DNA from: Daphnia pulex
Lineage: Eukaryota > Arthropoda > Branchiopoda > Diplostraca > Daphniidae
Direction of reading: 5' to 3'
DNA: 64,000 nt
Assembly (NCBI RefSeq): GCF_021134715.1
Contig: NC_060018.1
Location: 4,853,501-4,917,500 of the forward strand
The notes below the pieces were generated by a model that was not told the origin of the DNA, searched no databases, and saw only the letters and a program-made list of their open reading frames with translations. Position numbers and translations under genes: made by a program. This document shows positions 19,925 to 43,900 of this stretch, in pieces; the first letter of the stretch is position 1; each line of letters starts with the position of its first letter.

Positions 19925-22900
19925 CTGGAAAATGACGAAAAACAAACAAGAATTTGCACGGTGAAAATCACGCAGATAATGACCCTTCAAAACGTAAATA
20001 TCTGAGTCGTTTCCTCCCGGAGGATAAAATAAAATAAAAACAAAAAAACAGACTGAGCAATTTCAGGATTCATTAGTCAAATTTGGGACAGTTGGCCCGA
20101 CCCGCTATCTCCGATGGGCGTCGCAACAGGAGCGATGGGCGGTGGAAAAGGGGGAAGGAAAAAAAAAAATAAAGAGGAAAAAAATGACGAAGGAAATATG
20201 CCCACAGTTGTCATTTATTTTTGTTGGCGAACATCCGTCAAAAGAAATGGAAACTAATGAAAGGGAATGGGACTTTTGTGGGCGGCATCGGGTCTACCTC
20301 GTGCCGACCGGCGCGCTTGGCGTCGCTGGGTTGGCGAAGTGAACGCAAAGGATCGACGACAGAGAGCCAAAAAAGCGATCCCAGTCATTGGGGTCTCGTC
20401 GTCCGTTGATTTAAAATAAAAACGGAATAAAACAAAAAAAAATAAAAAAAAGGACTTCCAAAACAGCCAGCTGTCGTAGACGGACAGACGTGGTCTCCGC
20501 CGGTCCATGCAAATCCCTTGGTGACGTTCAAGACGTTTTGCGTCCGTCACGCCGGATGCAAATGGCTCCTAGGAGCTGGGAGATCGACCAGGAGTATTTT
20601 CGCGAGTTAGAGAACACAAAAGCCAATTTCATCCGCTCGACAGATCCGCATCTAATCTGAATCGCGTATATATCTGGAACAAGGTCTCTCGACCATTGTT
20701 GAATGACGACCAATTTGATTACTGCCATCAAACCAATCAGCTGCTTGCGAATTTCCCAATCAGGATCTCATTCAATCAACTTTGTTGAATTATTTTCCAA
20801 CGACAAATCATCCCGAACGCAAATTATCCTTTAAAAAAGCTAAACTTCAAAGAAACTTGATGATTCATATTTTCTTTGTTTAAACACGCACAACACCCCT
20901 TCTCACTCTCTCCCGAGTATTAAAAAACAAAACAAAGCAAAGTGAAAAAGAGGATGAAGGGAAAAGAGCTAAGAAGACGGTTGGGAAAAAGGATCTGCAA
21001 CAGCCGGCCCGGGATACGAACGGGGTTAAAAATAAACAAGCGACTTTGGCTCGCGTTATTTGAAAAAAAAAAAAGAAAAAAAAGGAAAGAAATTTAAATA
21101 TAAGCTAAATTGAAAAGGGAAAAAAAAAACAAGGTTAAAAGAGGAGGTGGATGGAGAAAACGAGCTTGTTGGTTTCTCAAGAAGAAACACCCCGATGGTT
21201 TCATTCTTTTTTTAATCACGGCAGTTTGTAAGGCCAAGAAGAGGGAAGAAAAAGAAGAAGAGGAGAATTGTTTTTCGCTGCAGCTTTGGCTGGCGTGCCA
21301 GGCCCGTTTTCGAAAAAAAAAAAAAGGATCTTTTCGTGAGAAGAAGAAGAAGAAGAAGGGCCTCGGGAGAAAGAAACAAGCGGACGAGACGCCGCGGACG
21401 GAACGAGGATTTTTTTCCCCCCTTCTTCCTCCTCCCATCCCCTCCATTTCTTTCCCCTACATATCGGCGACGTCGGGAGCTGAGCTTTTTTTTGCCGGCG
21501 TGAGCTCGAGCTAAAATTGGAATCCAAACTTCCCGTCTCTCTCTCTCTACCCTGATTTTTTCTTTTCTTTTCTTCTTCCCAATTTCTCTTTTGATTTCTT
21601 TTTTGGGGTTTTTCGGGCATACAGTAGCTGGTTCCCATTCCTCCGTTTCTTACACACTCCATCGTCGGGGGGTTCTTCTTCACGAAACAACATCTGCAAT
21701 ATGCCCTCGACCAACGGGCCAGAAGCCCCTCCGTCCTTCTCTTTTTCTCTCCCAAGCAGCGTGGAAATATTTAATGAGTGGTAGTCTGCGTGTTTGCCAG
21801 TCTCTCTTCTGGCAGAGGCGGGCGCGTGCGTGCATTATCTATTTATTTATATTTACACCATGTTCTACTACGACTACTAGTCTACTACTACACACGACTA
21901 ATGGCCCTGGCCCCTGTGCACTGTACATGCCCAAACGACTCCCCAGTACATATACACACACAAAAGCACAGGTCGCCGGCTCAAGGGTAAAGAGAGAAGC
22001 CAAAAGGAAGGAGCCGAGTACAAGTAAAAGTAAGATGCAGCAGCAGCAGGACCATAAGATCATCAACACATGTGCACACAGTCTATAGGGCCAGCCTCGG
22101 CCAAACGGGTGGACACAGTGCAGGTTCATTCACGACCGTATGTCGGCGCCAACATTTTTCTTCGTTTATTCTTTTTCTTTTTTCTGTTTTTCTTTGAAGG
22201 ATTTTATTTCTTAATTTTGGGTTGTTGTCTGGACTCCCGACTCGAATTATCTATTCCCTTCTCGTCTATTATGCATACGGGGGGTGGGGAGCGAGTTGGT
22301 AGGGGATAGATGTACAAGTTGATGGTTGACAAGAGACCCCCAGATGAGTCGAGTCTAGGGGGTATTGTGCCTGGCGTCAGAGCAGAGACGACGACGCCAA
22401 GACGCTTCAAAGAAACCAACAAGACGTCCAACGCCTCTGCCGCCACCTCCAAATAAGGCCACACAAGCCCAGCCAGAAAGGACGTCGTCATGGCAGTCGA
22501 CGTCGTTCTCCACCGTCCAAGAGCGAAAGTCGCCGTCCTTTTATTTTCTTTTCCAATTGCCAAAAACAGAAAAACTAGAATCGAATTCGCCTCGAATTGG
22601 TTCAACGTTTCTGGACGACGAAAATGTCTCATCACCCAACCATTCAACGGGCTAAAAAAAATCGATTTTTTCAGGATCGAATCTTTGCGCTAGGAGCGCA
22701 TCGGAACGGAATAGTGGGAATAAAAAGAAGACGAGTACAATGGGGGGAAGGGGGAAAAAATATATTTCTGGAGGCAACGAGGACCTTTTCCATCTTCTCT
22801 ATCTTAATCACAACCTCATTGGTCTCATAAGAATTTCAAATAAAGCCTCGTCGGAGATCGATGCGAAAAGGGCGAGCCGAGTGGATCTATAGCTCCGCAG

Positions 22901-40900: not shown

Positions 40901-43900
40901 CCTGGTTGAACTCGCAAAAGGATCTTCAATTCCCAACCGGGCAGGTCTGGCCAATCGATAAGGTGGCCAGAAACGGATAAAAAAGACATGATGGCCGGCG
41001 CGGTTACGTATAAGCGTTAGCGTTCGGAGGAGGAGGAGGGTATAGAGCAAGAGCAGCAGCAGCAGCAGCCTGATCAAACTACTTTGGGCTGACTCTGTTG
41101 TATATATTTACCCGTCTCTCACTCCTTCTTGCGCGTTGCTTAGCTTTGGCTTTGCTTGTGTGTGTAAGCGCTGGCTTCTATTTCCATCCGGCGGATTCCA
41201 CCTCCGCCAGCCAAAAAAACTTGGGTCAGCCCCGACAATTCCCCACCCAACTAATGTCAGCAACCTCCAAAAAGGGACCGGGCATGAGAGACAGTTGGAG
41301 AGATGGAGAGAGTAAAAAATACAGGGGCGCAGAGATCGAATGATGGGAATAATCGAAACAACATGCAGCAATCAAAAGGGAAAATGCGAATGGAAAAATA
41401 AAAGAGAGAAAAAAGAAAAGAAGAAAAAGAATAAAAAAAATACGGGTTTATGGAGAACACTTTACGAAGAGTACTACTCATACAACCCCCCTTCGGCGTG
41501 ATGGATGGATTCGAAACACGACGGGTTGGCTCTCGATATCGACTCAACGAGCTGCTCCCGGATACCCAGACAGACATGGAAATATTCTCTTTCAATTCCT
41601 CTCTTTTCCTCTTCTCAAAGAAACGCACATACACACATTCGAACCTTTTCTCGACATTCTACTGTCAACTATCATACGATAAGACGTATAAATATAAAAG
41701 CGCTTGGACGATGGAGGGGGGGGGGCGAATTACAGATGCCAATCCATCAAATAAAATTTACGGCAAAATAATCTAAATAAAAAAAAATAAAAAATAAAGT
41801 AGAGCGACCGTTTTGTTGACATCTTATTTCTTGGAGAATCTCTGCACACGACACAACAAGTCTACAGACTGGTGCCGCATCCGCTACACAATATATATAT
41901 ATATAATATAATAACCAGACGAAACCAGTCGAGATCTCTGCCTCCCTTTACGATCGCAATTTTCTCCTGTGTCAGGGACGATTCCAGCGTGTCATTACCG
42001 GCTGGTCGGCCTTCTTCTTTCCCCCCTTTTAAACTTTTCTGATTTATCTTTACCCACGCCGACAACGAGGTGCACCGAGTGAAAAAAAAAAAAAATTTGT
42101 TTTCGTTTTTTCTTGAATGAAAAATTCGCAGAATCTACAAATTGTTGTTCAGTTTTATGGGTAAAAATTGCTCAAAGGTAACAAAATCACTCTTGCCTTC
42201 CACTTATAACGCGTTGATTATAAAGAAGAAGTTTAGAATACCCCCCCCCCGCCTCCCGACTTCTTTTCTGCTCTAACCCAATAAATAAGGGTATAGGGGA
42301 AAAAAAAACAAGAGTACCAACATTTTCGGGCTTCCCATTTCTTTCACGACCATCTCGATATCGCTATTGATCGAGCGACGCGCACGCCCGTGGCGGGAGT
42401 TCCGCCGCCACTCACGCTACTGGTCCCGGGGTTGCGTGAGACGTTGCCCAAAAAGGGGGGGGGGGAAAAAAAAAAGAAGAGTCCTCCCAGTATAGATGGG
42501 GGAGGAGGAGCAAGAGGAGTGATGGCATAGTGGTCAGGACGAATGGGACAATCCAAGCGTGAGCTTCACGGCTAACGGACAACAAGGCTGAGCTAGCTGC
42601 AATGATGTCATGCGGAATCCAACTGAGAATCACCTCCTTAGATGCTCAGGGGTCCATCGATAAAAGGGGAGGGGGGACATAAGAGCCATCTTCGTCTTTA
42701 AATGAATAAACCAATGTAGCAGATGATCACGTTGTTCAGGTTACTTCGCTTACAACTTTTGAAAACAGAACCGGAAAATGGTTTAAACACACACACAAAC
42801 ACACACGCGTGTGTGTCCGGTACGGGACGAGGTACACGCGATCCAACGAACCATAGATAGAGCCAGAGAATAAGAGAGAGAGAGACTCAAGACAAGAAGA
42901 AATCAACGGGAAAAGTTGCGCTAGCGGAGCAGTGAATGGCCGCCAATAAACTTACGGTAACCGACCGAGCGACGGTTGTTACTTTATTCTCTTACATTGG
43001 TTGCAAAACTGCGTTAGCAACAACAATGGCATTGACCAAACGAGCCGGCCGGGCCCAGCTCCGTGTTCATGTTGCGCCGGGGCTTTGCTGTACATTGTGC
43101 CGGGCTGTGTGTGTCTGTGTGTGCACTGCGGGCGGCAGATGTCAAAAGATCGCCAATGACGTCATGAAACATGTGATCTCGTTTGATTGAAAAGAGGACG
43201 AACTCGGCGAAACGTCAGCGTTATCACCTCAATAGGCATATCAAATCCTCGCCCGTCTGTCGGCGCCCGTTGACAACCGAATTAGTGAAAAAAGAACGAC
43301 AGAGGGGAGTGAGAGGGAAAAGGGTAGAGAGCGTGAGGCGATCGTTAAGAGACGTCAGCTGAGCCGAGAGCTGCGTGTGTGTGCAGTAGCGGGGTGGGGT
43401 AGCGGGTGGCGGATGGCAACGGAAGAATTTCCCCTTGCTCTCACACCGATTCAATTATCTCTTGAGCGGAACCAGTCAGAGACCATAAACAGGAGAGAAA
43501 TCATCGAAACACAATCAGTTGGCTGCGGGATTCTATCCCATCATTGGTGGTGGTGGTGATGATGTACACCTTGTCGGTGACAAGGGGCCTTCCAACCTTT
43601 TATCGATTGACGAGCCCATCGAAAGGACAATCGGGGTACGGCCGCATCCGCAAGCGACAAGCCGGGGAAAAAAAATCGAGCGGCTCTAATAATCGCCAGG
43701 AGCGGTGGGGACGTAAATCTTAAATATGATTCGCCCCATATAAAAGATTGGCAACACTAACCTTGGATTGCCTCGCAGAGCGGCGTGATGCAGGGCATTG
43801 AATCCGTTATTGTTGGTGAGCGTGATGTCGGCATTGTGGTCGATGAGAAGCGTCAGCATGTCGTCCCGCTTCTTGGAAATGGCGTCGTGCAGCGGCGTAT

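Follow-up and report, generated by a model that had tools for sequence, protein, structure and literature searches.

mir-1 and mir-133 lie antisense within one long intron of mib1 in Daphnia pulex

According to our analysis of a 64,000-nt stretch of the Daphnia pulex genome (C2:4853501-4917500, hereafter the window, to which all positions given without a contig prefix refer), the genes encoding the microRNAs miR-1 and miR-133 lie on the plus strand, miR-1 first, within a single intron of the Mind bomb gene mib1, a member of the Notch pathway, which is encoded on the minus strand. The locus is very probably the arthropod copy of an ancient bilaterian mir-1/mir-133 muscle unit, placed antisense in a long intron of the ankyrin-repeat region of mib1 and predicted to be transcribed in its own right. 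That this nesting is older than the protostome-deuterostome split is already in print and not a new inference; the Daphnia locus adds to the arthropod members one whose intron limits are precisely defined.

The microRNA hairpins and their host intron

The features that define the locus are the following.

28292..28368, plus strand: mir-1 precursor hairpin, with mature miR-1-3p at 28340-28361 (exact match, RF00103, fold, single copy)
40350..40426, plus strand: mir-133 precursor hairpin, with mature miR-133-3p at 40400-40421 (exact match, RF00446, fold, single copy)
18118..55784, minus strand: mib1 coding region, 20 coding exons, 1037 amino acids (gene model, Pfam, alignment with human MIB1)
43762..43913, minus strand: mib1 coding exon 14, ankyrin region, ending ..LRGNP-S (gene model)
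19925..43761, minus strand: mib1 coding intron 14, 23,837 bp, GT-AG, phase 2 (gene model)
19705..19924, minus strand: mib1 coding exon 15, ankyrin region, starting S-AMRVLL.. (gene model)

The preliminary description of this DNA, which was made from the letters of the window, had reported exact 22-nt matches to both mature microRNAs within foldable hairpins, and this is borne out by shuffled sequences, by Rfam and by the stability of the folds. In the window search, both mature sequences were matched at 22 of 22 nt, while none of 100 shuffles gave a match in either case. We take the queries used here to be the arthropod forms of miR-1 and miR-133; human miR-1 and miR-133a differ from the arthropod mature forms at their ends. 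The Rfam covariance models score the mir-1 precursor at 67.5 bits against a gathering cut-off of 45.6 and the mir-133 precursor at 60.9 bits against a cut-off of 55.5. Both hairpins are more stable than 200 of 200 shuffles (z -6.92 for mir-1 and z -4.11 for mir-133), and each mature 22-mer sits in the 3' arm. The two are 12.0 kb apart, and each is present in one copy in the whole genome (133,188,837 bases in 13 contigs, up to two mismatches allowed). The complement of 28292-28368 on the minus strand, which would fall in the mib1 pre-mRNA, also exceeds the Rfam mir-1 cut-off, with 52.7 bits and a fold z of -3.80, a result that probably follows from the near-palindromic form of the hairpin. The exact miR-1 core was absent from the viral and GTDB contigs searched, and the miR-133 core from the viral contigs searched, in line with the animal origin of the genes.

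The host gene was modeled by tblastn with a human MIB1 sequence, large parts of which were confirmed by the PDB chains 4xi6 and 8v0e (named MIB1), followed by a search for exon junctions. Since this search admitted GT-AG junctions only, all introns are GT-AG by construction; exons 8 and 9 were joined by eye, and the weakest junction in the model is that between exons 17 and 18. The resulting gene reads from 55784 to 18118 in 1037 codons with a single terminal stop and no internal stop, and its single product combines, according to Pfam, the MIB_HERC2 and ZZ domains with Mind bomb SH3 repeats, with ankyrin repeats and with RING fingers. Of 1002 residues aligned with this human MIB1 sequence, 769 are identical. 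We assign the host to mib1 and not to mib2 because the next-best relative of its N-terminal 221 residues in the genome, located on contig 8 (C8:7007563-7008514), is only 46 to 51% identical over four pieces; this relative, which is probably mib2, is not linked to mir-1 or mir-133. Among viral contigs, 38 pattern matches to mib1 relatives were obtained, of which none was confirmed.

The model also confirms the intron limits proposed earlier, with a phase 2 junction between GNP and SAMRV, and the placement of both hairpins on the plus strand within this one intron of a minus-strand gene. Intron 14, from 43761 to 19925, splits the Ser codon of GNPSAMRV, which corresponds to human Ser610. The other 18 coding introns of mib1 comprise 16 of 60 to 215 bp and two of 2,209 and 6,935 bp. 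At an E value of at most 1, Rfam returned 10 matches in the host intron; four of these are mir-1 and mir-133, each on both strands, and the other six are weak and score far under their gathering cut-offs. Pfam gave no match at an E value of at most 0.01 in 10 longer open reading frames (ORFs) of the intron, which were chosen by hand and are not the ten longest. Tandem Repeats Finder listed five rows in the intron, each of 34 to 42 bases.

Proposed expression and control of the nested pair

We propose that muscle regulators, for example MEF2 and basic helix-loop-helix (bHLH) factors, would drive transcription of the pair from left to right from a promoter of its own within the intron, yielding either a single primary transcript or two that are co-regulated. 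Drosha and Dicer would then release miR-1-3p and miR-133-3p, both of which would tune muscle gene expression, while mib1 would be transcribed in the opposite direction and its 23.8-kb intron spliced out. Published work is cited here by PubMed Central (PMC) number, and what is said of it refers to excerpts of the papers. Both microRNAs were sequenced among the small RNAs of D. magna, where mir-1 has the highest counts in the table (PMC6828783), and mir-133 was amplified from D. pulex, at day 12 alone (PMC3882220). In mouse, the antisense transcript is bicistronic; its enhancer E1 precedes miR-1-2 by about 2 kb, and its enhancer E2, which lies between the pair, requires both a MEF2 site and a MyoD E-box (PMC3271076, citing Liu 2007). 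Two points weigh against this picture, in which the separate promoter and the muscle expression of the Daphnia pair are predictions: mir-1 was among the 6 of 14 microRNAs that failed to amplify in D. pulex (PMC3882220), and the authors of the sea urchin study leave co-transcription with Mib1 open (PMC11076791).

Two candidate elements were found in the intron.

35643..35672, no strand assigned: MEF2 site with two CAGCTG E-boxes, candidate enhancer between the hairpins (motif search, shuffles, genome count)
26269..26278, no strand assigned: MEF2 consensus CTAAATTTAG, candidate, 2.0 kb upstream of mir-1, with no adjoining CAGCTG (motif search)

They stem from a scan of the intron for eight patterns against 50 shuffles, in which the intron exceeded expectation for the relaxed MEF2 site (4 vs 1.3), the strict MEF2 site (2 vs 0.2), CAGCTG (11 vs 3.7, one of the 11 falling in mature miR-133) and TATAWAW (54 vs 6.0). 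CANNTG was slightly high (95 vs 81.7, with 4 of 50 shuffles reaching 95), and nothing was seen for CArG (2 vs 2.1), the Twist site CATATG (4 vs 2.5) or TCAGTY (16 vs 26.9). Scanning 26000-28400 for promoters and terminators of bacterial type is uninformative here. In the spacer, the strict MEF2 site at 35643 is followed by two CAGCTG within 20 bp, and the combination of a MEF2 site with two CAGCTG within 30 bp occurred in none of 1500 global and none of 1500 block-wise shuffles, compared with 5 and 3 of 1500, respectively, for a MEF2 site with one CAGCTG. Genome-wide, the double form has six matches, five of them identical on contig 3, thus amounting to two independent sequences, and its reversed control has none. 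The single-E-box pairing, with 55 matches genome-wide, would be expected about 0.01 times per intron of the host's length. The spacer and upstream sites occupy places comparable to those of mouse E2 and E1, respectively, a likeness of place and not of aligned sequence.

Several observations speak against reading these sites as enhancers. Single E-box pairings are as numerous in the genome as in the reversed control (55 each). In 19 control stretches of the genome (190 kb, 6 strict MEF2 sites and 49 CAGCTG), which are poorer in G+C than the intron (0.358 to 0.435 compared with 0.466), the densities correspond to 0.75 strict MEF2 sites and 6.15 CAGCTG per intron length, so that most of the excess of the intron, with its 2 and 11, is gone. 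Nor are the single motifs clearly denser in the intron than in the remainder of the window, which holds 3 of the 5 MEF2 sites and 14 of the 25 CAGCTG. The double form was picked after it had been seen and is thus a post hoc candidate, and the upstream MEF2 site at 26269 is without an adjoining CAGCTG. We put the spacer element forward as a possible, though rather improbable, enhancer that goes beyond what the literature searched reports. On this doubtful reading, MEF2/bHLH control would have become fixed in the mib1 intron before the protostome-deuterostome split and would have held the microRNAs there.

As a separate observation, the five identical CAGCTG-CAGCTG-MEF2-like copies on contig 3 lie within 66 kb (C3:7191879-7257525) and seem to be part of a gene family that is repeated there. 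When the ORFs around one of them (positions 1879-1906 of stretch L023) were inspected, without a family search, no muscle gene was seen.

An alternative explanation for the persistence of the nesting is a functional coupling with the host, in which antisense transcription or the microRNAs themselves keep mib1, and hence Notch ligand activity, low in muscle. The antisense overlap is indeed conserved, and a common role in the Notch pathway was proposed in 2008 (PMC2500172). Deletion of the clusters in mouse, however, left both the level and the splicing of Mib1 unchanged (PMC3777988; PMC4240597), and neither a miR-1 nor a miR-133 seed, of 6 nt or longer, is present in the 941 nt past the Daphnia mib1 stop, a length that is our guess at the 3' untranslated region. 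For want of such a seed in this presumed region, we reject the idea that the two microRNAs target their host mib1 directly, and we consider coupling as a whole improbable. Most likely, the linkage would persist through microRNA enhancers spread over the intron and not through regulation of mib1 by the microRNAs. With its single-copy microRNAs, the Daphnia locus is a convenient one for asking whether shared enhancers or host coupling keep the nesting in place, and the candidate MEF2/E-box module makes this question directly testable.

Possible correspondence with the vertebrate host intron

In human, MIR1-2 and MIR133A1 share intron 12 of MIB1 (PMC3217986), and MIR133A1HG is antisense to MIB1 intron 12 (PMC13276959). 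The 2008 silkworm paper describes the pair as antisense in the same MIB1 intron 12 in honey bee, red flour beetle, frog, chicken, mouse and human, the bee and beetle data being unpublished (PMC2500172). This number, compared with intron 14 here in a comparison of counts, is what favors an independent insertion of the pair into a mib1 intron in arthropods and in deuterostomes, the likeness being convergence. The gap can be explained by two introns inside the first exon of zebrafish mib1. The translation of a zebrafish guide target, which is assigned in print to exon 1 of mib1 (PMC8937233), is AANYRCS and corresponds to human residues 57-63. The first two Daphnia introns, at residues 29 and 55, thus seem to fall within the stretch that exon 1 encodes in zebrafish. 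Intron 14 would then fit vertebrate intron 12, since two of the introns present here are covered by that exon (14 - 2 = 12). Such a count is a consistency check and no proof, and it assumes that the remaining upstream introns match one to one. The reliance on a count weighs against our reading of homology with vertebrate intron 12; in the literature searched we found no source for the splice position between exons 12 and 13 of vertebrate MIB1, and the excerpts on mouse primers in the exons flanking the host intron and on human MIB1 variants gave no exon boundary. Convergence would have to reproduce the same gene, strand and order, and nesting or linkage is also found in insects, echinoderms and flatworms; we regard it as very improbable.

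A split gene or an assembly artefact, with the halves of mib1 separate or misjoined and the microRNAs intergenic, finds precedents in the annotation of the purple sea urchin locus (PMC11076791) and in the silkworm pair placed between MIB1 and another gene (PMC2500172), yet it is hardly credible here, where a single 13.35-Mb contig carries all 20 coding exons in sequence on the same strand and in one 1037-codon frame, the junction of exons 14 and 15 splits the codon of a conserved Ser, and the nearest related gene is on a different contig.

With the limits and the phase of its intron exactly defined, the locus cleanly represents, for the arthropods, a very old arrangement of nested animal genes, and the exact junction provides a sharp test of intron homology.

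Further features were noted elsewhere in the window. According to the ORF list, a long array of short tandem repeats at 751-2250 leaves several frames open on each strand. On the minus strand, 2560-6286 contains several Tyr/Thr/Pro-rich ORFs with YYTE/YYTT-like repeats, which suggest a secreted or cuticle-type protein of low complexity. A facing gene pair of the type I phosphodiesterase/nucleotide pyrophosphatase family occupies 10615-13366 (plus strand) and 13618-17176 (minus strand), with PF01663 on one exon each. Upstream of mib1, exons at 57272-58164 on the minus strand carry a CBS domain (PF00571) and resemble an AMPK gamma subunit.

Comparison with known nested mir-1/mir-133 systems

The Daphnia locus shares with the vertebrate MIR1-2/MIR133A1 locus (host transcript MIR133A1HG) the host gene, the antisense strand, the order, miR-1 coming first in vertebrates as well, and the use of one intron for both microRNAs. 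It differs in its spacing of 12.0 kb and in its intron being numbered 14 and not 12. The agreement in gene, orientation and order that the preliminary description had pointed out is thus supported by the published vertebrate locus. Each microRNA has one copy in Daphnia, whereas mammals have two clusters (PMC3777988).

By lineage, the closest published relatives are the mir-1/mir-133 pairs of the honey bee and the red flour beetle, which are likewise antisense in the same MIB1 intron, numbered 12 in print as opposed to 14 in Daphnia (PMC2500172). In the silkworm, the pair is located between MIB1 and CG30492-PC (PMC2500172). In Drosophila, miR-1 and miR-133 are linked at more than 10 kb from each other, and the excerpted text does not mention mib1 (PMC3763532). 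We found no earlier report of the nesting in Daphnia in the excerpts of the literature searched; the D. magna microRNA survey applied a cluster limit of 10 kb (PMC6828783), and at a spacing of 12.0 kb the pair would be missed there.

Outside arthropods and vertebrates, a 2024 paper reports that echinoderms and mammals share the nesting. In Strongylocentrotus purpuratus, miR-1 and miR-133 are both nested in a Mib1 intron, as in Daphnia, their strand being unstated in the text excerpted; this intron was spanned by polymerase chain reaction on complementary DNA, and it measures about 142 kb, compared with 23.8 kb here, one gene having been annotated as two around it (PMC11076791). For flatworms, a 2015 paper found miR-133 near a Mind bomb gene in five of five genomes and miR-1 near another in three of five, with 11.7 to 34 kb between the two microRNAs, compared with 12.0 kb in Daphnia (PMC4405270). 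Unlike the single mib1 of Daphnia, different Mind bomb genes are reported there near miR-1 and miR-133; the annotation may have divided a single mib1 there at a long intron, as it had in the purple sea urchin. The view that the arrangement predates the protostome-deuterostome split, also put forward in the preliminary description, is therefore supported by the published insect, vertebrate and echinoderm cases and, less directly, by those of flatworms.

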